DNA from: a virus
Virus record (IMG/VR): IMGVR_UViG_3300036766_001883
Span: 1 to 53,990 of that record
Reading direction: 5' to 3' (one strand)
DNA: 53,990 nt
The notes under the pieces were generated by a model. It had not been told where the DNA came from. It was given only the letters and a program-made list of their open reading frames with translations, and searched no databases. Shown here one piece after another: positions 136 to 38,090 of this stretch; positions within the stretch are counted from its first letter, which is position 1; every line of letters starts with the position of its first letter. Both the position numbers and the translations under genes were made by a program.

Positions 136-915
136 GTGGGCAAGGAATACGAGCAGCGCGGGATCGAGGCGTGGTTCGACACTGTCCGGCCCGTGATAGA
201 GAACCTCGCCCGGTTCGCCGACGTGGCCTGCTGGCAGATCGGCGACCTCGCGGCGACAGGAAGCCAATTCATCGAGCCGACGATGGCCTACTCGGTGCAG
301 ATGTTCATCGCCGTCGGAATGCGGCCGATCTGGACGCGCATCTGGGAGAAGCAGGGCATGAACTTTGGCATCGGTCCCTATCACCTCGTCTCGAACAAGC
401 CGGTGCAACAGTATGAATACCTGGCGGCCTTCGCCGCTGCCCTCGGGGATGATACGGGCGGCGAACCGCCGGAACTGCGAGAGTATGGCTTCCTTTGTGC
501 CTTCGCGGCGGGACAATATCGTTTCGTGCGGCGGCTGACGCAGGCTGAGCGGCGCGCCTGGGGTTACGCCGGCATCTGGCACATCAACACGGTAGCCGAG
601 AACAAAGACCACCCCGCGATGTTCCCGTTGGAGATCCCGGAACGCTGCATCCGGATGCACAGCGACGCCTGCGATATCATCCTGGACCCCTTTTCGGGCG
701 CCGGAACGACGATAATTGCAGCGGAAAGGCAGGGAAGACGCTGCTGCGCGGTGGAACTGTCGCCGGGCTACTGCGACGTCGCAGTGGAGAGGTGGCAACG
801 CATGACGGGACTGCAGGCGGTGCTGGAGGGGAGCGGGGCCTTGTTCGGCGAACAAAGCAGGCACGCAGGTGAGCCCGCAACATCAGGCACATTTGGCAGG
901 GATGAGAGGGGATGA
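136..915 (+). CDS. DNA methyltransferase, C-terminal part of a broken ParB-methyltransferase
   Basis: The reading starts abruptly as AYGVGKEYEQ, which in intact phage ParB-methyltransferases follows the catalytic (D/S)PPY motif. That motif is missing here because the reading frame meets the terminal repeat. The AdoMet-binding motif DPFSGAGTT is near residue 183, followed by a typical GRRCCAVELSPGYCDVAVERW stretch as in N4-cytosine/N6-adenine enzymes of the beta class. GTG 136 is only the first possible start. The matching N-terminal ParB half is at 50310-51197, across the repeat. The product is probably inactive as it stands. The 3' end overlaps the terminase small subunit gene, the usual place for such a gene. 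Confidence 0.8.
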   Translation: MGKEYEQRGIEAWFDTVRPVIENLARFADVACWQIGDLAATGSQFIEPTMAYSVQMFIAVGMRPIWTRIWEKQGMNFGIGPYHLVSNKPVQQYEYLAAFAAALGDDTGGEPPELREYGFLCAFAAGQYRFVRRLTQAERRAWGYAGIWHINTVAENKDHPAMFPLEIPERCIRMHSDACDIILDPFSGAGTTIIAAERQGRRCCAVELSPGYCDVAVERWQRMTGLQAVLEGSGALFGEQSRHAGEPATSGTFGRDERG

Positions 916-1510
916 CCGATTGCCGCGGGGCGCGCAGGAACGCGAAGTCATCAAGCAGAGGCAGGAGCGGGCATGGCAGTTCCACACGATCCGCAAGTTG
1001 ACGGTGCCGGAAGTCGCGCGGGTGCTCAATGTCTCGGAGCGGACCGTGCTGCGCGACCTCGCCAGTTCACGCCGGCGCAACCTGGCCGCCTTCCGCAAGG
1101 AGGCGAGCAAAGCCGACTGGCTCATCGCCAATGCGATGGAGGCGCTGGAAGAGGCGAATGCCATCATGCGGCAAGCGTGGACGGACCTCGTGACTGCACC
1201 AGCGGGCTCGCCGGTGAGGGCAGGTTTTCTGAACGTGCTGCTGAAGGCGGTGGGACGGCGCATCGAGATCCTCCAGTCACTCGGGCTGCTGGACAAAGCG
1301 CCGGAAGGGATACTGATAGGTGACCTCGATCTCAACCGGCTCAGCGACGACGAACTTGCGGGGACGCTTGCCGACATCCGTCAAAGAATTGACCAGGCTC
1401 GAGCGCCAAGGGGAATTGATTCTGGCGCAGCGGCTGAACCCCGCGCCCTGGATGCGGGGGAATCTGGATATCAGGACGAAGGCCAGGACGGTGATCCCCC
1501 TGCAGGCTAA
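902..1510 (+). CDS. Terminase small subunit (probable)
   Basis: A 202-residue protein directly upstream of the large terminase. A helix-turn-helix (VPEVARVLNVSERTVLRDL) near the N-terminus would bind the packaging site; a helical, Arg/Ala-rich middle and a charged tail follow. An upstream GTG at 869 is in frame and would add 11 residues; ATG 902 is preferred because it overlaps the methyltransferase stop only slightly, but neither start has a strong ribosome binding site. The motif LSDDELAGTLADI is typical of small-subunit C-termini. The last 190 nt overlap the large-subunit gene in another frame. Function is inferred from position and the HTH. Confidence 0.75.
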   Translation: MRGDDRLPRGAQEREVIKQRQERAWQFHTIRKLTVPEVARVLNVSERTVLRDLASSRRRNLAAFRKEASKADWLIANAMEALEEANAIMRQAWTDLVTAPAGSPVRAGFLNVLLKAVGRRIEILQSLGLLDKAPEGILIGDLDLNRLSDDELAGTLADIRQRIDQARAPRGIDSGAAAEPRALDAGESGYQDEGQDGDPPAG

Positions 1511-2138
1511 CGCGGTGCAGACGCAATACCTCGAGGGGCGCAGCGCGCGCGACATCATCTGCAAGGCGCGCCAGGTCGGAATCACGACGATTGTGTGCGC
1601 GCTGTTCTTCCACGACACGATCACGAGGCCCAACACCGCATCGGTGATCGTCGCCCACGATCGAGAAAGCACGGAACTGGTCTTCCGCATCGTGCAGTTA
1701 TTCTGGCGGCGGCTGCCGCAGGCGATGAGGGAGAAGGCGGGGCCGCCGCATTTCTCGAGCAGGCGCGAGTTCTTCTGGCCGCTGATTAACAGCCAGTTCT
1801 ATATAGGGACCGCAGGTGCCGTAACATTCGGCCGCGGCCAGACGATCAACAACCTGCACTGCTGCGAGTTCGCCTTCTGGCCTCGAGCCGAAGAATCCAT
1901 GGCCACCCTCCTGGAGGCCGTGCCGGCGGATGGCCACGTGGTGATCGAGTCCACGGCGAACGGGATCGGCAACTACTTTCACACACTGTGGCGCGCGGCC
2001 GCGGACAAGCAGAGTGAGTTCAAGCCGCACTTCTTTCCCTGGTGGCTGGAGCCGAAGTATCGGCTCGAGCCCACCGATGAGGAGTTCGAAGCATGGCAGA
2101 GTCAATTGGGTCAACTGGGCGTCGCGGCACGACGCTGA
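1320..2138 (+). CDS. Terminase large subunit, N-terminal ATPase half (split gene)
   Basis: The motor ATPase part of the DNA-packaging enzyme. Walker A-like CKARQVGITT is at residues 81-90, a Walker B-like hydrophobic strand ending CCEFAF near 178-184, and the coupling motif ESTANG at 210-215. The homology continues to PWWLEPKYRLEPTDEEFE and then breaks at base 2091, where an HNH ORF begins; 16 unrelated residues are read before a stop. The nuclease half resumes in the same frame at 2586. GTG 1320 has a GGAAGGG-type site upstream, but the start lies deep inside the small-subunit gene, so a later start is possible. It would work in the cytoplasm with the portal and the C-terminal half. Confidence 0.88.
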   Translation: MTSISTGSATTNLRGRLPTSVKELTRLERQGELILAQRLNPAPWMRGNLDIRTKARTVIPLQANAVQTQYLEGRSARDIICKARQVGITTIVCALFFHDTITRPNTASVIVAHDRESTELVFRIVQLFWRRLPQAMREKAGPPHFSSRREFFWPLINSQFYIGTAGAVTFGRGQTINNLHCCEFAFWPRAEESMATLLEAVPADGHVVIESTANGIGNYFHTLWRAAADKQSEFKPHFFPWWLEPKYRLEPTDEEFEAWQSQLGQLGVAARR

Positions 2139-2596
2139 GGCCGCTGATCGCGGGGCTCTATGAAGACGGCAAATCGCTGAGCGAGGTCGGGGCGATTACT
2201 GGGTTGCATAGAGGCACTGTCAGGTATCACCTTCGGCAGATGGGTTTAGAGCGGAGACCTCAGCTAGAGGCGCTCAGAGCCGCCGGCGGGCGCATTTCGC
2301 AGCGCCTGAGAGGACGGCGCAGCCCAAACTACAAGGGAGGTCGAACTCACCAGAGTGACGGGTATATTCTGGTGCACATGCCTGGGCATCCGCGCACGGA
2401 TAAATCCGGGTACGTGTTTGAGCATCGGCTCGTCATGGAAAAGGCGGTGGGCCGGTTGCTATCTCAGCATGAGGTCGTGCACCACCGCAATGGGAGCAAG
2501 GGTGATAACCGTCTCGAGAACCTTGAGTTGCTGGCGAACCACGGCGAACATTTGGCGCGTCATGGGCACTTGAAGGGAAGTCATCATGGTAACTGA
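2093..2596 (+). CDS. HNH homing endonuclease inserted in the large terminase gene
   Basis: A 167-residue protein: an N-terminal helix-turn-helix (LSEVGAITGLHRGTVRYHL) followed by a phage-type HNH domain (FEHRLVMEKA, then HEVVHHRNGSKGDNRLENLELL in two parts). It lies in a different frame from the terminase and starts two bases after the break in terminase homology. Its TGA stop overlaps the first terminase codon on the right (GAA at 2595-2597). The insertion is therefore about 504 nt, essentially the ORF alone, with no room for a self-splicing intron. GGAG upstream serves as the ribosome binding site. It likely cuts terminase alleles lacking the insertion to spread itself. Confidence 0.88.
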   Translation: MAESIGSTGRRGTTLRPLIAGLYEDGKSLSEVGAITGLHRGTVRYHLRQMGLERRPQLEALRAAGGRISQRLRGRRSPNYKGGRTHQSDGYILVHMPGHPRTDKSGYVFEHRLVMEKAVGRLLSQHEVVHHRNGSKGDNRLENLELLANHGEHLARHGHLKGSHHGN

Positions 2597-3461
2597 AGTC
2601 ATTCCCCTGACCAGCGAAGAGGTGGCCCTGATCCACCACCATGGGTTATCGCTCTCGCAGATCAAGTGGGCGCGGCAGAGACAGCGGCAACTACGCGAGC
2701 AGTTTCTTCAGGAATATCCATGCGACGACGTCACTGCCTTCCTGACCACCGGCCGATCGTGCTTCGACGTGCAGGCTCTGCGGCAGACGCTGCAGGCGAT
2801 CGCGGGCGAATCCAAGCCGCGCAAGATCAGCGCACTGACCAAGGGAGAGGACGCGCTCTCCTTCGCGCCGGCTCAGCTGGTGGCCTGGCAGTTTCCCCAG
2901 CGCGACCGGCTCTACGTGATCGGGGCCGATGTCGGAGAGGGATTGCCAGGCGGCGATGCTTCCTGTGCCCAGGTACTGGACCGCGCCACCTGCCAGCAAG
3001 TGGCGGAACTGCACGGGCGGGTGCCGCCGGATCGGTTCGGACACATGCTCGACCGGCTGGGCCGCTGGTACAACATGGCGACCGTGGGCGTGGAGCGCAA
3101 CAACCACGGGCACTCGACCCTGAACACCTTGCGCAACGTATCCCGCTACCCGAGACTCTACTACTACATGCGCTACGACCGCACCGCGCACACGAACAAG
3201 CCGGTGCTGGGCTGGCCGACGGATGCGAGCACCAAGCCCATCCTGGTGGACGACCTGGCGGCGGCGATCAGCGGGGGCAACATCGTGATCCACTCGCCAG
3301 GGCTGGTGGACGAGTGCTTCACGTTCGTCTCTAAGTCGGGGGGCGTCCAGGAGGCGGAAGAGGGCAAGTACGACGACCGGGTCATGGCGATGGGGATCGC
3401 CTGGCAGGTGCGCAAGCGGGGCGTCGGGCGCGGGACGACGCAGAGGCCGGCGGGATGGTGA
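2586..3461 (+). CDS. Terminase large subunit, C-terminal nuclease half (split gene)
   Basis: The RNase H-fold nuclease of the large terminase, which cuts concatemers during packaging. The protein opens with the linker helices seen before this domain (LTSEEVALIHHHGLSLSQIKW, EYPCDDVTAFLTTGRSCFD). Candidate metal ligands are D115 in VIGADVGEG, D124, E170 in VGVERNNHG and D264 in KYDDRVMA. The frame equals that of the N-terminal half, so removing 504 nt would restore one protein of about 545 residues. ATG 2586 overlaps the HNH stop and has GGGA upstream, so translation is probably coupled to the HNH ORF. Whether the two halves assemble into an active enzyme is unknown. Confidence 0.88.
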   Translation: MVTEVIPLTSEEVALIHHHGLSLSQIKWARQRQRQLREQFLQEYPCDDVTAFLTTGRSCFDVQALRQTLQAIAGESKPRKISALTKGEDALSFAPAQLVAWQFPQRDRLYVIGADVGEGLPGGDASCAQVLDRATCQQVAELHGRVPPDRFGHMLDRLGRWYNMATVGVERNNHGHSTLNTLRNVSRYPRLYYYMRYDRTAHTNKPVLGWPTDASTKPILVDDLAAAISGGNIVIHSPGLVDECFTFVSKSGGVQEAEEGKYDDRVMAMGIAWQVRKRGVGRGTTQRPAGW

Positions 3462-3736
3462 ACCCGACGACGAGGCGCGTCCACTCTCTGCGATCGCTGG
3501 CAGAGGCAGTCGCGGCCCTCGCGTCGGAATTGCAGGTCGGCCTTCCCCCAGGGAGCGAATTGAGGATCGTCACCCCGTCCCAGGCGGCGCTGCTTGAGTT
3601 CTTTGCGGAGAACCCCTTCTGCACGATCGAACACCTCGAGATTCACGCCGGCGATCCACACCTCCTCGAGCTGCGGCTCAACGAGGTGGTGGCGGCGAAA
3701 ATCAAACTGCGGCCGCAGGAACAGAAGGTCGGTTGA
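3455..3736 (+). CDS. Small protein between terminase and portal, unknown function
   Basis: A 93-residue soluble protein whose ATG overlaps the terminase stop codon, so it is translationally coupled. The sequence has a short basic N-terminus, an alanine/leucine helix, a PPGSELRIVTPSQ segment and an acidic LEFFAENP helix, and ends in EQKVG. No known domain is recognised. The stop codon lies inside the -35 box of the next promoter. Its place suggests a packaging or head accessory role, but the sequence does not show this. Confidence 0.65.
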   Translation: MVNPTTRRVHSLRSLAEAVAALASELQVGLPPGSELRIVTPSQAALLEFFAENPFCTIEHLEIHAGDPHLLELRLNEVVAAKIKLRPQEQKVG

Positions 3737-3761
3737 CATGGGCCGACCGATGGCATAGAAT
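3733..3761 (+). promoter_or_regulatory. Sigma70-type promoter before the portal leader
   Basis: TTGACA, a 17-bp spacer and TAGAAT. The -35 box sits inside an inverted repeat, GGTCGG (3727-3732) and CCGACC (3743-3748), which could be an operator. Transcription would begin near 3768 and meet a terminator within about 85 nt, so the leader is a conditional or attenuated start for the head genes. Confidence 0.75.
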
Positions 3762-3767
3762 CGCCCG

Positions 3768-3852
3768 GACAACTGAATAACGATGCTCGGCGACCGGAAA
3801 ACCGGAGGCGAGCCGATTGTCTCCCAAGCCTGGGAAACGCGGCTCGCTTTTT
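3768..3852 (+). ncRNA. Structured leader RNA, cassette 1 (portal)
   Basis: The leader contains AACTGAATAA (3771-3780), then a small hairpin CCGG-AAAA-CCGG (3794-3805) within GGCGA...AGGC, and then a terminator. The same order occurs before the gene at 6910, where the stem is CCAG-AAAA-CTGG: both strands of the stem changed while pairing is kept, which supports a real RNA structure. It may be a short RNA, an attenuator, or a cis-acting antitermination element. Confidence 0.6.
3808..3852 (+). terminator. Intrinsic terminator in the portal leader
   Basis: GCGAGCC (3808-3814) pairs with GGCTCGC (3841-3847), followed by TTTTTCGTTT. An inner stem TCCCA/TGGGA sits in the loop. It stands upstream of the portal start codon, so it must be read through, or serve only to end the short leader transcript. 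Confidence 0.75.
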
Positions 3853-3882
3853 CGTTTCGGGCGCCGCGGAAGGAAGAAAGGC

Positions 3883-5319
3883 ATGGCACTCGATCTGAAG
3901 ACGTATCCGCCGGCCGGGCACACCGACAGGGTGAACGGATACGCGCGTAACGAGAAGCTCTTTCTCGGCGATCACAAGATCGTCTTCGGAGTCCAGCCCG
4001 GCCGGTTCCAGATGCTGCGCTACATCGTCGCCAACTTCCCCGCGGCACTGTCGCGGCTGTGCGCGGACTTCCTCTTCGGGGAGGAGCCGGACTTCACCGC
4101 CGGCCAGGAGAAGGAGACCGAACGCGAGGCAGGGCAGGCAGCGCTCGACGAGATGATCAAGCGCAACAAGCTGCATGTGACCAACTACGAATCGGCGCTC
4201 TCCAACTCGTTCCGCGGCGACGCGGTCTATAAGGTGCGCTGGGGGATTCGTGATCCGGCGGCGGGAGCGGATCAGAAGCCGGAGGCGATCATCCAGGAGG
4301 TGCCGGCGACGATTTTCTTCCCCGAACTCGCGGAGGACGACGTGCGCCAGATCCTGCGGGTAACGATCGGCTGGACGAAGCGGGATCCCAACGACGCGCT
4401 CAAACAGTACCTGCGCATCGAGGAGCACGAGCCGGGCGTCGTCAGGCACCGGCTGTATCTGCTCACCGGGCAGACACCCGGGCAGCAGGTCGCCCTCGAG
4501 ACGCTCGAGCAGTACAAGGGGTTGCCGGATGAGGAGCTGACGGGCCTCACCGTGATCCCCGTCGTACACATACCCAACTTCAGGTACGGCTCGCGATTTT
4601 GGGGAATTAGCGATTACCAGGGGCTGGACTCGCTCTTCGAGGCGCTCAACAGCCGGCTGTCGCAGATCGAAGTGGTGCTTGATAAGCATACGGCGCCGAA
4701 GATCATATTGCCGCCGGGCTATGTTGACAGCGACGGCAAGGTCCGGTTCGACCAGATGGAAGCGGTCGAATTGGCGGCCGGGGATCAACCGCCGAGTTAT
4801 CTCACGTGGGAGGGGCAACTCCAGGCGGCGGGGGCGCAGTATGACCGCTTGCTGGACCTGCTGATGATCACGGCGGAGATCGCGCCCTCGGTCTTCGGAC
4901 TGGAGAAGTTCGGGCTCGCGGAGAGTGGACGCGCACTCCGGCTGAGGTTGCTGCGCACCCTGGCGAAGATCAACCGGAAGCGCCTGTACTACGATGCGGG
5001 GCTGAAGCAGGCACTGACGATCGCACAGATGCTCGATGTCACCAGGGGCGGCGGCAAGTATGCACCTGCGGAACCATCGATCGCCTGGGCGGACGGGTTG
5101 CCGGAGGACGTGGTAGAGATGGCCGAGATCGAGGTGCAGCGCATGGCTGCGGGCAACACGTCGGTAGAGTCATCCATCAGAAGGCTCGATGGTCCGGACG
5201 CGGTCGAGGCCGAGATGGACCGGATGGATGAGGAGGCCGGGCAGATGGCGGTCACCACTGGGGCCTCGCAGCGGCCCGGCCAATCGGCACAACCTGGCCA
5301 GAGGCAAGGGCAGCAGTGA
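3883..5319 (+). CDS. Portal protein (SPP1 gp6-like family)
   Basis: A 478-residue protein forming the dodecameric ring at the head vertex through which DNA enters and leaves. Position after the large terminase, length, and sequence style (LKTYPPAGHTDRVNGYAR, FLFGEEPDFTAG, RYGSRFWGISDYQGLD, a helical C-terminal crown and a Gln-rich tail QRPGQSAQPGQRQGQQ) fit the SPP1-like portal family. ATG 3883 is chosen because it follows the leader terminator and an AGGAAGAAAGG site; an in-frame upstream start would overlap the leader RNA. The stop overlaps the next start (TGATG). Confidence 0.85.
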   Translation: MALDLKTYPPAGHTDRVNGYARNEKLFLGDHKIVFGVQPGRFQMLRYIVANFPAALSRLCADFLFGEEPDFTAGQEKETEREAGQAALDEMIKRNKLHVTNYESALSNSFRGDAVYKVRWGIRDPAAGADQKPEAIIQEVPATIFFPELAEDDVRQILRVTIGWTKRDPNDALKQYLRIEEHEPGVVRHRLYLLTGQTPGQQVALETLEQYKGLPDEELTGLTVIPVVHIPNFRYGSRFWGISDYQGLDSLFEALNSRLSQIEVVLDKHTAPKIILPPGYVDSDGKVRFDQMEAVELAAGDQPPSYLTWEGQLQAAGAQYDRLLDLLMITAEIAPSVFGLEKFGLAESGRALRLRLLRTLAKINRKRLYYDAGLKQALTIAQMLDVTRGGGKYAPAEPSIAWADGLPEDVVEMAEIEVQRMAAGNTSVESSIRRLDGPDAVEAEMDRMDEEAGQMAVTTGASQRPGQSAQPGQRQGQQ

Positions 5320-5600
5320 TGGGCGGCGTCTTTCACAGCGCAGTCTATGGCGCGATGAACAAACGGCAGCGGCGCCGCCTTGGCATGGCCGGATATCGGC
5401 GCGAGGAAGTCTGGGCGCGCATGGCGGCGGAGGAGGGGCGGATGCGGGCGGCCCGGGCTGCCCTGGCCTGGAAGGTGACGCCTTGGTGGCGCAAGGTGGT
5501 GATACGGATCAGGCTCTTCTGGCCCGTTCTCGTGCGGTTACTCGCGGCCTGCGGGCGGCGGCTGACTTTTTTTCGCAAGAAACCACGAGGAAAACCGTGA
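5319..5600 (+). CDS. Small basic protein with a hydrophobic segment
   Basis: A 93-residue, very basic protein (QRRRLGMAGYRREEVW at the start; RKKPRGKP at the end). One hydrophobic stretch (RLFWPVLVRLLAACG) near residue 65-80 could be a membrane or amphipathic helix. The ATG overlaps the portal stop, and the minor head gene starts 15 nt downstream. No family is recognised. Its place suggests a head accessory role. Confidence 0.6.
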   Translation: MGGVFHSAVYGAMNKRQRRRLGMAGYRREEVWARMAAEEGRMRAARAALAWKVTPWWRKVVIRIRLFWPVLVRLLAACGRRLTFFRKKPRGKP

Positions 5601-5615
5601 GGTTCGGCCTGCCCC

Positions 5616-6707
5616 ATGCCTGCCCTCATCTCCAAGAGACGCGTTGACGAGTTCCGCCGGGCGTTCGACCGCGAGATCAACTCCCTGGCGGCGCTCTACC
5701 GCAACGCCGCCGCTGATGCCCTCGACGTGTTGAGCCAGGCGGCTGCCACGGTCGCCTCGCGCCAGCGCGCTCTGGCCTTGCTGCGGCAGTATCAATATGT
5801 CCTCGCGGGACTGAACGATGAGGCGGCGCTCTGGATCCAACTCAACGTGCCCAAGGCATACCAGTTGGGGGTCGAGTTTGGAGAGCAGGGACTCCGGGGC
5901 GTACGAAGGGCAGCCGGGCGGGCGGGCATCAACCTGCGGCCAGAGGCCCGCCGTGCGGTGGCGCTCCGGGAGCGGGATGTCTTCTCGCGGGTACACCAGG
6001 AAGCGGTGCAAGCGATAACGGGTGCGATGCTCGATCAGGTGAACGCCGCGGTCCTGGAGATCGGGCGGCGGACGGATGATGTTTTCAGGCAGCAAGGCAT
6101 CCTGGCGGTGGCCAGGGGCGTCGCCGCCGGCAAGGCGCGCGTCGAGGTGAGCCGCGAGATCAAGGACCGGCTGATCGCGGCGGGCCAGCCGGTCTTCCGC
6201 GATCGCCTCAACCGCGTCTGGACGCTGGACCGCTACGCCGAGATGGTGGCGCGGACGACCACGCGGGAGGCGATGACGCAGGGGACGATCAACCGACTGC
6301 GGGAAGAGGGGATCGTGCTGGCGCAGGTGAGTCAGCACCCCTGCAAAGATTTTTGCGTCTATTATGAAAACGTCATCGTCTGCATCCAGGGGACCCATCC
6401 GGTCTATCCCGGCATCGAGGCGATCGGCGGCGGCCCACCATTCCACCCTCGGTGCATACATGTCCTGAGGCCCTTCGTCGAACGGCTGGCGAGCCGCGAA
6501 GAGAAGCAGGAGGGCAAGGTCGCGGCGGACCTGCTGCGGCCGGAAGGGAAGAGCAAGGAGCAGCACTTCGCCCTGCTCCAGCGGCGGTTCACGAAAGAAT
6601 TCCCGCAGTTGGCGCGCGAGGAGGGGAAGCGCCTCCGAGCCGAGGGCGCCCGGGCAGAGGCGCGGCGCGAGCGCGCGATCGCGCGGGCAGGCGCAAAATC
6701 TTCCTGA
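5616..6707 (+). CDS. Minor head protein (SPP1 gp7 / Mu F-like)
   Basis: A 363-residue protein directly after the portal, as in SPP1-like and Mu-like heads. The C-terminal region has the family hallmark: RYAEMVARTTTREAM, then a cysteine pair in HPCKDFCVYYENV and a conserved GGPPFHPRCIHVLRPFV block with His and Cys. It probably binds the portal and is packaged in the head to assist DNA exit. A long Lys/Arg/Glu-rich helix follows at the end (EEKQEGKVAADLLRPEGK and RAEGARAEARRERAIARAG). Start ATG 5616 lies in GCCCCATGCC without a strong ribosome binding site. Confidence 0.82.
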   Translation: MPALISKRRVDEFRRAFDREINSLAALYRNAAADALDVLSQAAATVASRQRALALLRQYQYVLAGLNDEAALWIQLNVPKAYQLGVEFGEQGLRGVRRAAGRAGINLRPEARRAVALRERDVFSRVHQEAVQAITGAMLDQVNAAVLEIGRRTDDVFRQQGILAVARGVAAGKARVEVSREIKDRLIAAGQPVFRDRLNRVWTLDRYAEMVARTTTREAMTQGTINRLREEGIVLAQVSQHPCKDFCVYYENVIVCIQGTHPVYPGIEAIGGGPPFHPRCIHVLRPFVERLASREEKQEGKVAADLLRPEGKSKEQHFALLQRRFTKEFPQLAREEGKRLRAEGARAEARRERAIARAGAKSS

Positions 6708-21347: not shown

Positions 21348-21881
21348 ATGGAGATCTGCGATCAACTGAAGTGGCGCTGCGTCACCACGCTGCGCAAGTA
21401 CCGCGCGGACATCGCCGAGTACATCGCGCGGCACGGGAAGGCGGAGGGCGAGCGGGTCTTCGAGGTCGAGAACGCGCCCCACGAAGAGCGCACGATCCAG
21501 GGGAACCTGCTGCTGCGCGAGGGCGTGAAGGCGATCTTCGATCTGCTCGTGGGCAACACCGAGACGGCCTTCAGTGAGGCGAACGCGCGAATTGGGGTCG
21601 GGGATTCGACCACCGCGGCAGCCGACACGCAGACGGGCCTGCTGGGCAGCAACACGGCCTTCAAGGGAATGGACACGAGTTACCCGATAGTCGGGGCGCT
21701 CGCCGACAAGAAGGTGACATTCCGGGCCTCATTCGGCGCCAGCGAAGGCAACTTCGCGTGGGAGGAGTGGACGGTTGACAACGGGTCGTCGGCCAACAAG
21801 AACCTGAACCGGAAGGTCGAGGCGCTGGGCCAAAAGAGCGGCGGGACGTGGCAGCTATCTTGTGACATCTCACTTGCTTAG
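21348..21881 (+). CDS. Tail-module protein, paralog of the gene at 23918
   Basis: A 177-residue protein with GGAGGAGGATGAG before the start. Shared with the protein at 23918: a GNLLLREG segment, (I/L)GVGDS with TQTGL, a FRASFG...NFAWEEWTVDNG core and NLNRKV near the end. Such proteins with a GVGDS motif are common near the phage tail tip and are thought to be structural. It ends four bases into a convergent HNH gene. Confidence 0.65.
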   Translation: MEICDQLKWRCVTTLRKYRADIAEYIARHGKAEGERVFEVENAPHEERTIQGNLLLREGVKAIFDLLVGNTETAFSEANARIGVGDSTTAAADTQTGLLGSNTAFKGMDTSYPIVGALADKKVTFRASFGASEGNFAWEEWTVDNGSSANKNLNRKVEALGQKSGGTWQLSCDISLA

Positions 21882-22435
21882 ACCCGACGTTGGTCTGCGT
21901 GAGGTCGGTATGGCCGGTCTGATTTTCGCCTACGAATGTAGGAGAGGATGTTTGCTTGCCGACGACATTTCTTGCACCAGGAGTCGTGCGCATCTGCCGA
22001 AGGAGCGCGAATGCCAGGCGAGAACTCGTCTCGCGGTTTGATGACAAGACACCGATGGCATTGCTTCTGCGTCGTGGAGCGGTAGGTGGCGTGGGTCTGG
22101 CTATGGGCGCGATGAGATTTGATGAGCACAAGATTGGAGGGGTCGTTGTTCATCCCATTTCCGTCTTTGTGATGAACCACCTCGCCCGGCTCAAGCGGGC
22201 GACCGAGGTGCTGCTCCATGACGTAGCGATGCTCATAGACCTTCCTTCCGTTGAGGCCGAATACATGATAGCCCCTACTCACGCAGCCGCCCTTCCACCG
22301 CGGATGTCTCGTCCCCCGCTGGGCCATTCCGAGACATTGGGGCGAGCAATAGATCTGAGGTCTGTGGCACGGTCTGTAACTTTGCCCGCAAATAGGACAG
22401 GTTCGGTTCGCCCGCCAGAGAGCTCGAGGTTTCAT
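21878..22435 (-). CDS. HNH homing endonuclease, reverse strand
   Basis: A 185-residue protein. Zinc ribbon at the N-terminus (CPICGQSY...CSPQCLG), then the phage HNH core (YEHRYVMEQHLGRPLEPGEV, VHHKDGNGMNNDPSNLVLI), and a C-terminal zinc knuckle (CHRCL, CKKC). It has its own promoter on this strand: TTGCCC, 17 bp, TATCAT with an upstream TG, just before the ATG. The stop overlaps the end of the tail gene by four bases. It is a selfish insertion between two tail genes. Confidence 0.85.
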   Translation of the reverse strand: MKPRALWRANRTCPICGQSYRPCHRPQIYCSPQCLGMAQRGTRHPRWKGGCVSRGYHVFGLNGRKVYEHRYVMEQHLGRPLEPGEVVHHKDGNGMNNDPSNLVLIKSHRAHSQTHATYRSTTQKQCHRCLVIKPRDEFSPGIRAPSADAHDSWCKKCRRQANILSYIRRRKSDRPYRPHADQRRV

Positions 22436-31195: not shown

Positions 31196-31681
31196 GTGAA
31201 AGAAATAAGAACGACGCAGCAGCGCCTGGCCGTGCTCGGCCGGCCCTACATCCTGAAGGCAGACGGGTCGCTGAAGGCCGACCCGGCCTGGGAGAGCGCC
31301 AACCTGGCGACGGTGCTGATGCCGACGGCCCTGCCTCTCTCCTGGGAGCCCAGCGTTCGCACGCAGAAGGTCCGGTGCCATCGCCTGGTGGCGGCACAAC
31401 TGCGCGGAGTCTTCAAGGACCTGAAGGATCGGGATCTCTGGGGCCAGTTCCAGACCTACGGCGGCTCCTACGTGGTGCGCCGAGTGAGGAGCGCGAACGG
31501 AATCAGCGGGCACGCCTTCGGGGCGGCATTCGACTACGACAGCGAGCGCATGCCGCTGCGGAGCAGGGCCCGGTGGCCGCGCCTGGTGGTCGCAGTCTGG
31601 AATGCCCACGGTGCGATATGTGGGCAGGACTTTTCGCGTCCCGACCCGATGCATTTCGAATTCGTGAAGTGCTACGGCTGA
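31196..31681 (+). CDS. Endolysin, M15 (VanY-like) peptidase
   Basis: A 161-residue protein with the M15 zinc signature: H106 and D113 in SGHAFGAAFDYD and H153 in PDPMHFEFV, with the preceding helix in a RWPRLVVAVWNAHGA stretch. These enzymes cut peptide cross-links of the cell wall. GTG 31196 follows AGGAGGCTGAC. A second, diverged copy of the gene's 3' end (GPDFICPGPVHFECVKLF) lies at 32228-32302, beyond an HNH gene, so the end of this gene was duplicated or replaced by that insertion. Confidence 0.82.
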   Translation: MKEIRTTQQRLAVLGRPYILKADGSLKADPAWESANLATVLMPTALPLSWEPSVRTQKVRCHRLVAAQLRGVFKDLKDRDLWGQFQTYGGSYVVRRVRSANGISGHAFGAAFDYDSERMPLRSRARWPRLVVAVWNAHGAICGQDFSRPDPMHFEFVKCYG

Positions 31682-32163
31682 GGTCCACGGTAACGCCACT
31701 CGGGATGATGCCGATGATTCCAGTCGCGCTTATAGCAGGGATAACATAGGCCCTTTGCCTGGATCTTGCCTACCTTGCCGCACTTGAGGCAAGGCCGGTC
31801 TGCTGCTCTGCGCCATGGCTGCTGCTTATGGTAAGGGCTGTTCTGATGCGCGCTTTCAGTAGAGAAAAGGAGCAGATTCTCCGGCCTGTTGTCGGTCTTT
31901 ATGCCATTGATGTGATGGACGGACTCTCCGGGCCGCAGCGGGCGACCCAGCACGTTCGACATCACGAATCGATGTTCTAGCAGAAACCCATTCCTGCCAG
32001 CATTCGGATGACCTGGTAGGCGCCGCATGATATGTCCAGTATTGAGTATCGTACCAGACCCGTTCGGACGGCGGCGTGGCTTTTGAGAACGGCAACTAAG
32101 GCAGGTGCGGTCGTCGCGGAAATCAAAATGTTGGCGACATCTACGACACTGGCGCTGCGACAT
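31672..32163 (-). CDS. HNH homing endonuclease at the endolysin 3' end
   Basis: A 163-residue protein on the reverse strand. It has an N-terminal zinc ribbon (CRRCRQHF, CLSC), the HNH core (LLEHRFVMSNVLGRPLRPGE, SVHHINGIKTDNRPENLLLF) and a C-terminal CLKCGKVGKIQAKGLCYPCY ribbon. GGGAG lies before ATG. Upstream on this strand is TATAAT within the palindrome CTATTATAATAG (32191-32202). The stop lies within the last codons of the endolysin gene. Confidence 0.85.
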   Translation of the reverse strand: MSQRQCRRCRQHFDFRDDRTCLSCRSQKPRRRPNGSGTILNTGHIMRRLPGHPNAGRNGFLLEHRFVMSNVLGRPLRPGESVHHINGIKTDNRPENLLLFSTESAHQNSPYHKQQPWRRAADRPCLKCGKVGKIQAKGLCYPCYKRDWNHRHHPEWRYRGPQP

Positions 32164-33627: not shown

Positions 33628-33912
33628 ATGAGGAAGCAGCGAGCGGCGAAGCGGGGAAACAAACCGAAGCCCGTCAGGCGCGCCTACATGCGCTCGCAGA
33701 GATGGCGGAAGATCGAGGCCGCCTACGGAAGTCCGCCGACCGACATTGTGCGCGGCCACCTGAGGGAGGGGCTGACTGTGACCGAGTCGGCGGGGAGGAT
33801 CCTGCGGGAGACGCGAATCAGCGTGAATCGCGCGACCCTGTATGCCTGGCTCGCCCAGGAGGCGGAACCGGGCCGGCCGTTGGTGGAGGCAGTCGCCGCA
33901 GCGGCAAAGTGA
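33628..33912 (+). CDS. Small helix-turn-helix DNA-binding protein
   Basis: A 94-residue basic protein. After a Lys/Arg-rich start (KQRAAKRGNKPKPVRRAYMR) come helices with DIVRGHLREGLTVTESAGRI and RETRISVNRATLYAWLAQEA, a resolvase-style HTH. It lies directly before attP and integrase and after a strong promoter. It could be an excisionase, a regulator of integration, or a repressor of the twin promoters. Which of these cannot be told from the sequence. Confidence 0.6.
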   Translation: MRKQRAAKRGNKPKPVRRAYMRSQRWRKIEAAYGSPPTDIVRGHLREGLTVTESAGRILRETRISVNRATLYAWLAQEAEPGRPLVEAVAAAAK

Positions 33913-34028
33913 CGGACGACAGATGGCGCAGGCGGTGACGATAGCGGGCGAGGGACTCGAGCGCAGGCTCGAGGCTGTTCTGTTCTGCCATGCACTCCTG
34001 CAGGCTCATGCGCCGGGCCGGTGGATGA

Positions 34029-34046
34029 CGAACCGCGCACCTTGGG
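34029..34046. repeat. 18-bp direct repeat, left copy at attP
   Basis: CGAACCGCGCACCTTGGG occurs exactly at 34029-34046 and at 34227-34244. The left copy runs into the attP core, sharing CTTGGG with it. An exact 18-bp repeat 198 bp apart is far beyond chance. Candidate integrase core or arm sites. Confidence 0.85.
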
Positions 34047-34085
34047 ACCACGAGGTCGCCGGTTCAAGTCCGGCCGCCCCGACCA
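34041..34085 (+). other. attP: attP core: 3' part of a tRNA-Pro(UGG) gene
   Basis: The sequence reads as the anticodon loop CTTGGGA, stem strand CCACG, variable loop AGGTC, T arm GCCGG-TTCAAGT-CCGGC, acceptor strand CGCCCCG, A73 and CCA. This is a complete tRNA 3' part with the proline anticodon UGG and the G72/A73 of bacterial tRNA-Pro. The 5' partner of the anticodon stem (CGTGG) is absent upstream, so it is not a working tRNA. Such fragments beside an integrase are classical attP cores: integration restores the host tRNA gene. Confidence 0.88.
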
Positions 34086-34226
34086 GCCTACTAGACTTCA
34101 GTGCCCCCTCCTTTTGCCGGGAGTCGCTCTCCTGTTACCCCACCGGCCCTCTAACGACCGATCATGCCCTGCCTTGCCCGGCGCATGGAATAGCACCCTT
34201 TGAGGATCGCGGCCAAAAAATCTCTG

Positions 34227-34244
34227 CGAACCGCGCACCTTGGG
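34227..34244. repeat. 18-bp direct repeat, right copy before integrase
   Basis: Exact second copy of CGAACCGCGCACCTTGGG, ending 11 bases before the integrase start and merging with its ribosome binding site (GGGGAGGTG). Integrase bound here could block its own translation start region or promoter. It may alternatively be a relic of an earlier attachment event. Confidence 0.85.
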
Positions 34245-34255
34245 GAGGTGCTCAG

Positions 34256-35446
34256 ATGGGGAGTCTGCATTACGTCGTCCACTTCCTGCGCATGGAGCGG
34301 GCAGAGGGTAAAGCTTCATCCACACTTCGCAATCGCCACCGCGCCCTGAAAGCCCTCGATGCCTGGCTGGGATCGCTGGGGCTCACCGATAGCCAAGTCA
34401 GTCGCCTCGACCTGGCGGATTACGTCTGCTGCTTGCGGGAGAGGCATCCGGCGGACCAGGTCAACATTGACATCTCGGCCGCGAGGGTTTACTTCCGCTG
34501 GCTCGCCGAGATGCAGGTCCGCGGGGACAACCCGGCTGCCGCCCTGCGGTTCCTACGCGTGGAGCCGAAGCCGGTTGAGAGCCTGACGACGGAGGAGGTG
34601 CGCAGGTTGCTTTCCTTTGCCCGACGCACGCGGGGCCTGCGCTTTGGCACCGATCGAACTGCGGTGCTTGTAGTCTGCCTGATCGACACCGGCATGCGGC
34701 TGGGCGAAGCGCTGCGCCTGCGGGTCAGCGACCTGGACCTCATCCAGGGGCGACTGCAGGTGACAGCGACGAAGACGGGGAGGACACGGTCGGTACCGCT
34801 GTCGCCCATATTGCGGCGGCTGCTGGTGGCCTATCTGAGGCGCCGGGCGGCGCACTTGCAGCAGCGGAATCTGGCCGACTGCGGAGTACTCTTCATCGGC
34901 GAGCACGGCGGTCCCTGGACGATCGCCAATGCGGAGCGGTCGTGCAAGACGGTAGCCCGGCTCGCCGGCCTGAGGCGGGAGGTGTATCCACACCTGTTCC
35001 GGCACACGTTCGCCACGCAGTTGTTGGCGGGCGGGGCTTCGCTGATCGTGGTCATACTGTGGGGCGGATGGCAGAAGGTAACGACCGTGCAGCGCTATAC
35101 CCACATGTCGCCACAGCAGCAGGCAGACGTACACGCGGCGACCAGCCCGCTCATGCAGGCAAGCCGCCTGCAGTTCCTGATGCCAGAAGACCGAGGAGGT
35201 GATGATAACGACGGCGACCAGAAGCGAGGAGCGGTCAGGGCGCGAGCAGTCGGCGCGGCCCGGCGCGAGGACCGGAGTGCGCTGGTGCTAAGATCGAGTA
35301 AGGAGGCGAAAGCCCGCCGGAGCTGGCAGCCAGGCGGGCCATCGCGCACCCAGATAGGGCGACGGGATTATAGGCCGGGTCCGCTCGGCAGTCAAGCGCA
35401 GATTCGAGATCTATCCGCCGGGAGGCGGAGTAGGAGGACGAGATGA
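34256..35446 (+). CDS. int: Tyrosine integrase
   Basis: A 396-residue site-specific recombinase. N-terminal SAM-like core-binding domain (RNRHRALKALDAWLGSLG), then the catalytic domain with R148 (TGMRLGEALRL), K173 (ATKTGR), H246-x-x-R249 (YPHLFRHTF), W272 in the usual His/Trp position and the nucleophile Y281 (VQRYTHMS). All key residues are present. Residues beyond about 310 form an unusual basic, low-complexity extension. ATG 34256 has GGGGAGGTG upstream; an open frame further upstream crosses attP and is rejected. It integrates the phage at the host tRNA-Pro. Confidence 0.92.
   Translation: MGSLHYVVHFLRMERAEGKASSTLRNRHRALKALDAWLGSLGLTDSQVSRLDLADYVCCLRERHPADQVNIDISAARVYFRWLAEMQVRGDNPAAALRFLRVEPKPVESLTTEEVRRLLSFARRTRGLRFGTDRTAVLVVCLIDTGMRLGEALRLRVSDLDLIQGRLQVTATKTGRTRSVPLSPILRRLLVAYLRRRAAHLQQRNLADCGVLFIGEHGGPWTIANAERSCKTVARLAGLRREVYPHLFRHTFATQLLAGGASLIVVILWGGWQKVTTVQRYTHMSPQQQADVHAATSPLMQASRLQFLMPEDRGGDDNDGDQKRGAVRARAVGAARREDRSALVLRSSKEAKARRSWQPGGPSRTQIGRRDYRPGPLGSQAQIRDLSAGRRSRRTR
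35312..35339 (+). promoter_or_regulatory. Hairpin inside the integrase 3' extension
   Basis: GCCCGCC (35312-35318) pairs with GGCGGGC (35333-35339), loop GGAGCTGGCAGCCA. It is preceded by AAGGAGGCGAAA and not followed by a T run. It is within the odd 3' extension of integrase, about 100 bases before the next gene. A regulatory RNA element for the recombination operon is possible. Confidence 0.5.
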
Positions 35447-36852
35447 GAGCCAAAGATCTAGGACGTGTCTGTATCTGGCAGGATGATCCACCCGATGGTC
35501 CCGCTTGCGGCAAGGAACGGGTTGGCAAATCACTCTACTGCGGAGAGCATGCTCCGCTCTTCAACGCCGCATACCAGGCGCGTCTGCGGGCGGAAGCAGA
35601 GGCCTCTGCGGAGGCACCGCCTGCGGTGCCAACGACGAAGCCGCAGGTCGGCAGCATGCTTGATTTCTCAAACCTCGAGCCGGGAATTTACCAGGTGGCC
35701 AGCCCGGACGAGGTCCAGGCCCTCGAGGCGGCCGTCACGCTGCGCGAGGGCGAACATTTCTGGCCCATCAAGGAGCGGAAACCCAAGCCGGGGACCGACC
35801 AGTGGGAGGATGTCATAGTCGGACTGCAGTGCAACACGGCCGGCCTGTCCCTCCAGGCCGAAATGCTCGGGGTGCGCATCGTGCCGCGGATCGCCGACCA
35901 GACCTCCCGCTATGTTCTCGCCGAAGCCACGGCCTTTCGGTTGGACAGCGCCGGAATCCTGACCGTCTATCGGCGCAGCAAAGAGTACGACATGGCGGCG
36001 GAACTGTTCCGAGCGGCCCTGAAGAAGATCCCGAGAGCGACGAGGGCGGCGCCAGGGCAGAAACCCACGGAGGAACAGACGACGGCCCTGGCGACGATCG
36101 TGAGTGAAGAGACCGCCCTGGCGCTGGTGAAGACTCTGCCGGGAGGGGTTCAGGCCGAAGTGCTGCTCGCCCGGATGGAGGTCCAGGATCACCGCTTGGG
36201 CCTCTGCCAGACGAAGGCGGAGAACCAAGTGAAGCGAGAGTTCATCCGCCGCTGCGGCGGGGTACTCAAGGCGGACCCCGGCTTCAAGGAGATGACCGTC
36301 AAACTGCAGCGCGTGGTCCTCCTGCGGAAGGTCACGGCCGAGCAGGCGGCGGCCGCCGCAGAGGCCCTGTTCGGAGGGGCCCGGCGGGTCAAGGCCGAGG
36401 TGATCGAGCCCGCGGCGGAGGAGCCGCGGAAGGCGGACAATGGCAGCCACTCTGCTGCCCAGGCAGTGGATGCGCAAGCCGTCCCGGCCGAGGAGGCGAC
36501 GGCCGAGCAGGAAGCCGAGGATGCGGCGATCGTCGGGGATCAAGTCGCCGGGGAGGAAGGAGTCCACGACGACGACCGGGACGAAGAGCCGCTCCCGGGC
36601 TCGTTGCCGCCGAATGACCAACCCGCACGGGATGCGGTTCGCGGGGCCGCAGGGCCGCCGGACCAGGGCGAACCGGCAAGCGCCGACTTGCCGATGGAGG
36701 GGCCGGTTACCTGCGCCGACTGCGGCGGGGACGTGCCGGACAATGTGGTGGCATTCTGCCAGAGCGCGCGAGGCAGGCAATTGTTCCAGGGCGCGATCGT
36801 GTGCTTCAAGTGCCAGGAGAAGCGGCGCGTCCATAAAGGCAGCCAGGCATGA
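35443..36852 (+). CDS. Probable recombination-associated protein with C-terminal zinc ribbon
   Basis: A 469-residue protein, first of a co-directional row. A short Cys/His start (CIWQDDPPDGPACGKERVGK and CGEHAPLF) may bind zinc. The core has a KAENQVKREFIRRCGGVLKA block and helices, recalling phage single-strand annealing proteins in which a T/KAE-x-x-xxR motif is common; this is a weak match. A long acidic, disordered part leads to a C-terminal CADCGG ... CFKCQEKRR zinc ribbon. ATG overlaps the integrase stop and its own stop overlaps SbcD, so it is coupled to both. Confidence 0.5.
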   Translation: MRAKDLGRVCIWQDDPPDGPACGKERVGKSLYCGEHAPLFNAAYQARLRAEAEASAEAPPAVPTTKPQVGSMLDFSNLEPGIYQVASPDEVQALEAAVTLREGEHFWPIKERKPKPGTDQWEDVIVGLQCNTAGLSLQAEMLGVRIVPRIADQTSRYVLAEATAFRLDSAGILTVYRRSKEYDMAAELFRAALKKIPRATRAAPGQKPTEEQTTALATIVSEETALALVKTLPGGVQAEVLLARMEVQDHRLGLCQTKAENQVKREFIRRCGGVLKADPGFKEMTVKLQRVVLLRKVTAEQAAAAAEALFGGARRVKAEVIEPAAEEPRKADNGSHSAAQAVDAQAVPAEEATAEQEAEDAAIVGDQVAGEEGVHDDDRDEEPLPGSLPPNDQPARDAVRGAAGPPDQGEPASADLPMEGPVTCADCGGDVPDNVVAFCQSARGRQLFQGAIVCFKCQEKRRVHKGSQA

Positions 36853-38090
36853 AGATCGCATTTGCGGGCGATTGGCACTTGGGGGCGCAGGGCAGCCGCC
36901 TGGATCCCGAGACTGGGCTGAATGCGCGGCTCGTGGACCGCGCACGCTGCGCGCAGTTTGTCGCTAAAGAAGCGGTCGGCCAGGGCGCGGAGATCCTACT
37001 GCACGGGGGCGATATCTTCGATGGCTGCCGGCCCAGCCCGAGCGAGGTCCGGCTGGCGCGGGACATCATCAGTATGGCGACCTACTCGCGCCTCCCGACC
37101 GTGCTCCTGTTGGGCAACCACGATGGCCCGCGGTCGCCCGCGGAGAAACACGCGCTCGATCTGCTCGGCGACATGGGTCGGCTCACCATCGTTGACTCGC
37201 CCCAGGTCCTTTATTTCCGCGAGGTCCAGACCGAGCAACGGAACTTGGCGCTCGAGTGCGAGGCGGACCAGGCGGACCTGCAGATTGCCTGCTTGCCGTG
37301 GCCTAACAAGCAACTACTTCTCGCCGGCGATCAGTATCGCCGACTGAGCCCCGGCGACCTCAACCAGGTCGTGCGCGAAAAGATGCTCGAGATTGCGCAG
37401 GGCCTGGCGGACTCGCGCCTGCCCGGGGTTCCGTCCATCCTGCTCGGACATTTCTCCCTCGATCTCGCGGAGGCGGGCGGAATGAGCCGGCTGATGGTGA
37501 TGGGAGGAGAATGGACCCTCCCGATCGCCGAGATCCAGGGGCTGAACTTCGATGCGGTCCTTCTGGCGCACATCCACAAACCGCAGGCCTGGATGGACGG
37601 CGGCGGCCGTCGCCTCGTTGTCTACTGCGGATCGACAGAGGCGATGGGCTTCGGGGAGGAGGGCGAGGAGAAATCCTTCTGCCTCCTGGAGATGGCGGGC
37701 GCGGGACCGGCGGCCAACGTCGCCTTCCAGCGGATTGCGACTCCCTTCAGCCGCTTTGTGACGATCGAGATCCAGGGGCCGACAGTCAACCTGTTCACGG
37801 AGGAGGTCGCGCGGGCATCCATCCGAGTTCGACTGCCCGAGGCGATGGCGCACGAGGCGGGGCCGATTGCAAAGACCCTCGAGGAGGCTGGAGCCAATGA
37901 AGTCCGGATCGAAGTGGTCCGCGCGGAAGCCACTCCGCATCGGGCCACCGAAGTATCTGAACAAATGGCTGTCGCGGAAGCGATCCAGGCGTGGCTCAAA
38001 CAACGGCCGGACCTCGAAGCGCTGACGGCCGACGTGATGGCAGAGGCGGAGCGGCTGGAGGCGGACACGGGACAGGGGCGTGCCATATGA
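36849..38090 (+). CDS. SbcD/Mre11-like nuclease
   Basis: A 413-residue metallophosphoesterase nuclease. Motifs in order: GDWHLG (7-12), HGGDIFDG (about 51-58), LLGNHD (about 88-93), GHFSLD (about 200) and HIHKP (about 241-245), giving the two-metal active site. The C-terminal part is helical and would bind the SbcC-like coiled coil. The start overlaps the previous gene (ATGA) and the stop overlaps the ATPase gene. With SbcC it processes DNA ends and hairpins during phage recombination or replication. Confidence 0.88.
   Translation: MKIAFAGDWHLGAQGSRLDPETGLNARLVDRARCAQFVAKEAVGQGAEILLHGGDIFDGCRPSPSEVRLARDIISMATYSRLPTVLLLGNHDGPRSPAEKHALDLLGDMGRLTIVDSPQVLYFREVQTEQRNLALECEADQADLQIACLPWPNKQLLLAGDQYRRLSPGDLNQVVREKMLEIAQGLADSRLPGVPSILLGHFSLDLAEAGGMSRLMVMGGEWTLPIAEIQGLNFDAVLLAHIHKPQAWMDGGGRRLVVYCGSTEAMGFGEEGEEKSFCLLEMAGAGPAANVAFQRIATPFSRFVTIEIQGPTVNLFTEEVARASIRVRLPEAMAHEAGPIAKTLEEAGANEVRIEVVRAEATPHRATEVSEQMAVAEAIQAWLKQRPDLEALTADVMAEAERLEADTGQGRAI

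Follow-up and report, generated by a model that had tools for sequence, protein, structure and literature searches.

The large terminase gene (terL) of an uncultured bacterial virus, whose IMG/VR record IMGVR_UViG_3300036766_001883 was analyzed in full as a window of 53,990 bases, is divided into two ORFs, TerL-N and TerL-C, with an HNH endonuclease ORF between them. A split at the same point is present in five other IMG/VR contigs (L085, L086, L174, L183, and L173), two of which have no HNH gene in the slot; both halves retain the invariant residues of the enzyme, and the sequence surrounding the junction is locally mosaic. This is very probably a gene in pieces that is expressed without splicing, was made or spread by a free-standing HNH homing endonuclease, can persist without that endonuclease, and specifies two polypeptides that assemble with one another.

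The split gene lies within a head-packaging module of the ordinary type (positions 869 to 6707), which contains a small-terminase-like ORF, the large terminase, an SPP1-type portal, and a minor capsid protein (Table 1). TerL-N matches the PHROG family of terminase large subunits (phrog_2, E = 1.5e-15) and TerL-C matches Pfam Terminase_6C (E = 1.8e-6), with 78% and 69% identity, respectively, to the unsplit terminase of L004. TerL-N (stop codon TGA, 2136 to 2138) and TerL-C share one reading frame, and the HNH ORF occupies another, with its own start and stop codons. The HNH ORF, with matches to Pfam HNH_3 (E = 3.1e-9) and the PHROG HNH family (E = 3.9e-24), is predicted to have a helix-turn-helix-like region at residues 15 to 49 followed by the HNH_3 domain at about residues 84 to 161, and is likely a free-standing homing endonuclease. 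A search of its model against the PDB returned no match below E = 0.1, only partial helix-turn-helix-like ones. The ORFs and profile matches, together with an empty Rfam search, uphold the first-pass annotation in reading this region as a large terminase in two genes separated by an HNH ORF with no intron. Its exclusion of an intein agrees with the reading frames and with the lack of space for intein blocks, and the separate ATG and GGGA site that it assigned to TerL-C are both present, the latter within AAGGGA.

Table 1. Features of the split terL locus, in positions of the window
Feature	Position	Strand	Remarks
TerL-N, ATPase core half of the large terminase	1320..2138	+	Start codon not certain; homology from ~1425
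Probable co-conversion tract	2058..2690		Junction tract like the split class; rest of TerL like unsplit L004
GAGGAG, SD-like, for the HNH ORF	2079..2084	+	Within TerL-N codons, 8 nt upstream of ATG 2093
HNH endonuclease ORF	2093..2596	+	ATG 2093, TGA 2594-2596, 167 aa
TerL-N/HNH overlap, 46 nt	2093..2138	+	Conservation follows the TerL frame only
Inferred inserted segment, 501 nt	~2109..2609		From gapless comparison with unsplit L165
TerL-N tail, nine codons (GQLGVAARR) and stop	2109..2138	+	Same length in all split relatives, missing from unsplit ones
AAGGGA, SD-like, for TerL-C	2573..2578	+	7 nt upstream of ATG 2586
TerL-C, segment leading to the hinge and RNase H-like nuclease half	2586..3461	+	ATG 11 nt inside the HNH end

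Elsewhere in the window are two more HNH ORFs, both on the minus strand (21878 to 22435 and 31672 to 32163), which are distant kin of the terL HNH (41 to 44% identity over the HNH part); the L004 phage record has an HNH ORF at 51426 to 51683. An integrase family match (33842 to 35446, plus strand; phrog_1, E = 2e-47) suggests that the phage is probably temperate, and an SbcD/SbcC-like pair (phrog_100 and phrog_77) occupies 36849 to 40387 on the plus strand. The single close match in bacterial genomes is a 5'-truncated TerL-C with 63% identity in an Armatimonadetes MAG contig (L243, 4230 to 4923), a possible hint at the host that is too slight to name one.

Most close relatives among viral contigs have an unsplit terL; such relatives, for which the first-pass annotation had proposed a search, include L004, L165 to L170, and L175, among others. 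Among the contigs with the split, the order of TerL-N, HNH, and TerL-C is identical in L085, L086, and L174, whose TerL halves are 51 to 58% identical to those of the window and whose HNH ORFs, in the same slot, are 54% (L085 and L086) and about 43% (L174) identical to its own. The recurrence of this three-part order in three independent contigs excludes chance or an error of assembly. L183 has no insert: its TerL-N ends in GTGTGA, and the GTG start of TerL-C lies inside this sequence, such that stop and start overlap by 4 nt and the two halves are in different frames. In L173, the slot is filled by a 404-amino-acid pentapeptide-repeat ORF rather than an HNH gene. Because L183 and L173 are split without an HNH gene, the split is independent of it. 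No HNH kin were found in the records of L183, L173, or the unsplit L182, and HNH-centered scans found no further split terL. The linker of L182 is long (AAWAAQLVSADAGQLGARDGVAGLSQDE), and this terL may represent a re-fused gene.

Several other terL genes are interrupted in different ways. In L172 (651 to 2270), the TerL ORF stops at 1703 and nuclease homology continues to 2270, reflecting a frameshift or a sequencing error that is distinct from the split in the window. In four distant relatives (L431, 3956 to 5460; L422, 1504 to 2945; L433, 3947 to 5408; and L438, 3965 to 5387), TerL consists of two overlapping or adjacent ORFs with no endonuclease between the halves, and the break, unlike that in the window, falls close to the hinge, immediately ahead of the nuclease domain. 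Judged from their ORFs, these four define a second natural break point in TerL. At this second point, L417 (3443 to 5414) has an unrelated ORF of about 141 amino acids in the slot, and L435 (2650 to 5142) has a methyltransferase-like ORF of 187 amino acids that has a weak Pfam match.

The edges of the insert can be placed by comparison with the unsplit L165: the sequences flanking the insert in the window (PTDEEFEAWQSQL and TSEEVALIHHHGL) align without gaps to the continuous L165 sequence (ITGEEAAALQAAL followed by ATEEAALVRRYHL), the linker of which is similar to those of the unsplit L178, L184, L189, and L247. Terminase homology thus reaches 2108 and restarts at 2610, and the inferred insert is about 501 nt. 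These edges replace those of the first-pass annotation, in which homology stopped at GAA 2088-2090 and resumed at GAA 2595-2597 and the 504-nt insert (2091 to 2594) was the HNH ORF itself. With the left edge at about 2109, the start codon and first five codons of the HNH ORF are terminase DNA, the ATG being situated within the Ala-Trp codons GCA TGG of the terminase. This GCATGG is the same in L085, L086, and L174, and the corresponding codons read GTC TGG or GCG TGG in L183 and L173.

TerL-N ends beyond the insert edge, with the C-terminal peptide AWQSQLGQLGVAAR, after a conserved nine-codon tail. In the overlap with the HNH ORF, identities at TerL codon positions 1, 2, and 3 number 29, 36, and 22 of 48, which is a coding signature (position 2 > 1 > 3); the same codon-position comparison yields no such signature in the HNH frame, and HNH residues 1 to 11 are predicted to be disordered, indicating that TerL-N truly extends to 2138. 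The tail beyond the QL is nine codons long in each of the five distinct split forms (GQLGVAARR, RQLGLVARP, RALGLAAKS, RRVGMEVRV, and RSAGVPVRV). At the other side of the insert, TerL-C has about eight extra N-terminal residues (MVTEVIPL), and its starts are alike among the split forms (ending in VxPL and followed by an E-rich helix); tail and start are both unlike the unsplit forms. The shared tail and the similar TerL-C start argue for a single origin of the junction. Given the 46-nt and 11-nt overlaps and the SD-like sequences upstream of the HNH ORF (with counterparts in L085 and L174) and of TerL-C, translational coupling of the three ORFs is plausible. A frameshift fusion of TerL-N and HNH was considered and set aside, since inspection of the 46-nt overlap revealed no classical slippery heptamer.

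Despite being divided, the terminase looks functional. The window contains the ATPase and RNase H-like nuclease residues of the T4 gp17-like TerL family, with the nuclease acids kept at 2928, 3093, and 3372/3375. Across 23 unsplit terminases, 49 alignment columns are unchanged, including motor residues and nuclease acids, and all 49 are kept in the window, L085, L086, L183, and L173, as are 48 in L174 (the exception being one F to Y). The two-polypeptide terminase proposed in the first-pass annotation gains its strongest support from the HNH-less L183, where the cut falls at the same place, and from the completeness of these 49 residues, and the same cut in relatives that lack the selfish gene suggests that the motor runs as two separate proteins. 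The HNH gene itself appears to be under purifying selection, with a dN/dS of about 0.1 to 0.2 between the window and L085 at a dS near saturation.

The ancestry of the junction appears to differ from that of the surrounding terminase. In trees of the TerL body, the window pairs with the unsplit L004 (support of 100 for the N part and 99 for the C part), and L085 and L086 pair with the unsplit L175 and L176 (support of 85 and 100). The methyltransferase, TerS, and portal of the window are 82, 68, and 72% identical to those of L004 and 38, 34, and 54% identical to those of L085. Around the insert, however, identity between the window and L004 falls to 10 to 33%, and that with the split relatives stays at about 50%; the same drop around the junction occurs between L085 and the unsplit L175. 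A tree of the junction alone is too short and is poorly resolved, so body trees and counts of informative ungapped sites were used. Though informative sites at the junction are few, the counts there differ from those in the body and lean toward the split class, both for the window (Fisher exact test, P = 0.008 to 7e-6) and for L085 against the unsplit L175 and L170 (P = 6e-4 to 7e-8). Between L085 and L086, there are 14 differences in 1301 to 1600 and 4 in 1601 to 5363 (about 3,760 bases), with the breakpoint at the start of the HNH ORF.

This pattern is what would be left by homing with co-conversion or by an exchange boundary at the nuclease gene, as described previously (PMC10448857), with exchange in either direction. 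It points to local transfer with flanking DNA in two lineages, as a signal of exchange and not proof of cutting, and the likeness of the junctions could in part reflect convergent constraint on the split ends.

The order of events admits a second reading, possible but doubtful, in which the split preceded the HNH gene and the junction of the two-gene terL serves as a cargo slot for an HNH gene, a pentapeptide-repeat gene, or nothing. This differs from the preferred reading in the order of events only. It accommodates the HNH-less splits of L183 and L173, and the same ambiguity attends the T4-like gene 43 (PMC2988022), but the insert is an HNH gene in four of the six contigs, and all four are homologous to one another. 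The presence of GTC TGG or GCG TGG in place of GCA TGG in L183 and L173 fits both orders alike. HNH proteins near the terminase can aid terminase cutting (discussed in PMC10448857), which raises the prospect that this one is a packaging accessory resembling HK97 gp74 rather than a homing endonuclease. That role is unlikely: the HNH gene is missing from terL in the split L183 and L173 and in the unsplit relatives, no kin of it were found elsewhere in the L183, L173, and L182 records, and it is not conserved with the packaging module across split and unsplit relatives, as an HNH of the gp74 type would be.

Readings that restore a single polypeptide, or dispense with a working one, fare worse. 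The HNH gene could be removed from the RNA as part of a hidden self-splicing intron, of group I or another type; terL introns bearing endonucleases exist in ICP1 (PMC10448857) and the Bastillevirinae (PMC11878797), and the length of the insert, a multiple of three, keeps the halves in frame. This is nonetheless highly improbable, because the insert is nearly all coding and phage group I introns have about 350 noncoding bases (PMC11878797), and because a structured catalytic core was not found: Rfam has no intron match in the window at E ≤ 5 and no match at the gathering score in L085, L174, L183, or L173, and the window RNA folds no better than shuffled sequences (z = -0.38). Moreover, L183, whose halves are in different frames, lacks any insert that splicing could remove. 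Programmed bypass of the T4 gene 60 or mobA kind, which relies on matched take-off and landing codons together with a stem-loop, would need a hop of about 500 nt here, ten times as long as that in T4. Religation of the halves by a split intein is scarcely credible, even though gene 17 of Aeromonas phage PX29 (GU396103; L523, 1680 to 4669) is annotated as two ORFs with an N-intein, a C-intein, and a GIY-YIG endonuclease, a layout shared by AsFcp_2 (L525). By inspection, the nine and approximately eight extra residues in the window leave no space for intein blocks, and the HNH gene has an ORF and a frame of its own. Finally, the terminase might be dead, as in a decaying provirus or a phage using another packaging enzyme, an idea that has no direct support, although the integrase gene makes a proviral past conceivable. 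With no invariant residue lost from either half, the split maintained over lineages only about 50% identical, the overlaps and SD-like sites conserved, and a neat stop/start overlap in the HNH-less L183, this is very unlikely.

The preferred reading, an unspliced gene in pieces, has its closest counterpart in Aeromonas phage Aeh1, in which mobE splits nrdA and the two-piece enzyme has been shown to work (PMC2988022). As in the window, a free-standing endonuclease ORF of the HNH family divides an essential gene into two ORFs with no intron. In contrast to Aeh1, the window involves a packaging motor, for which two-piece function would be deduced from sequence, and HNH-less relatives retain the split. 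The first-pass annotation had drawn this parallel, and the position of the endonuclease ORF in another frame, the unsplit relatives, and the mosaicism of the junction strengthen it. Gene 43 of T4-like phages is likewise split (43A/43B) whether or not an endonuclease occupies the slot (seg43 in phage 25; IC-UTS in phage 44RR), and its two-piece polymerase is active (PMC2988022); it shares with terL the ambiguous order of events but encodes a DNA polymerase and involves a Seg-type endonuclease. Among terminases, PX29 17A/17B resembles the window in having two ORFs with an endonuclease, but there the annotation includes a split intein, which would rejoin the two protein halves, and the endonuclease domain is GIY-YIG. 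In Parabacteroides phage phiPDS1, the two TerL domains lie on two CDS, an arrangement that, in the authors' view, could stem from an alternative genetic code or from faulty assembly; unlike the case of the window, the passage on this two-CDS terminase mentions no endonuclease (PMC10773633). In ICP1 (PMC10448857) and the Bastillevirinae (PMC11878797), mobile DNA also interrupts terL, but it is removed by RNA splicing. None of the Aeh1, gene 43, PX29, and phiPDS1 parallels is identical to the split terL of the window, and the recurrence of the arrangement, its lateral movement, and its partial TerL precedents (PX29 17A/17B and phiPDS1) go beyond the first-pass annotation.

The location of the break bears on how such a motor might operate. 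The closest relative of the window terminase with a solved structure is T4 gp17, to which the terminase profile aligns through residue 318 and then from residue 386 onward, with the break slightly after the first of these points. In an AlphaFold model of the unsplit L182 (mean pLDDT of 84.9), the break maps to a low-confidence loop (residues 273 to 286) between helices at 258 to 272 and 287 to 296, some 100 residues ahead of the predicted start of the nuclease. Both the alignment and the model put it ahead of the hinge that joins ATPase and nuclease, where the ATPase core gives way to the helical segment leading up to that hinge, and not in the linker between the two domains, as first annotated. 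Since the hinge lies just before the nuclease, it probably stays on TerL-C. When T4 gp17 is cut at the hinge, ATPase and nuclease activities are retained and translocation is abolished (PMC3012670; PMC9958956), so the viability of a split motor cannot be taken for granted; the cut in the window sits elsewhere.

We propose that an HNH homing endonuclease gene came to occupy terL within the loop that links the ATPase core to the segment leading to the nuclease. The mRNA would remain unspliced in vivo, with ribosomes reading TerL-N, HNH, and TerL-C in turn from the overlapping ORFs, and TerL-N and TerL-C would assemble into a working packaging motor. In mixed infections, present or past activity of the endonuclease would cut unsplit copies, thereby spreading the split along with flanking terminase DNA, and the split terL would be stable enough to outlast the loss of the endonuclease or its replacement by other cargo. 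Whether the junction is, more broadly, a laterally mobile split-gene cassette, through which phages exchange a break point upstream of the hinge and keep a two-polypeptide motor after endonuclease loss, with the slot free for other cargo, we regard as evenly balanced.

Terminase motors are thought to require that ATPase and nuclease be joined by a covalent hinge. A natural break ahead of the hinge suggests where the motor tolerates cutting, and the split TerL offers a handle on the way in which the ATPase moves DNA. If the proposed history is true, a selfish endonuclease has left a lasting mark, namely an essential gene that stays divided after the endonuclease is gone.
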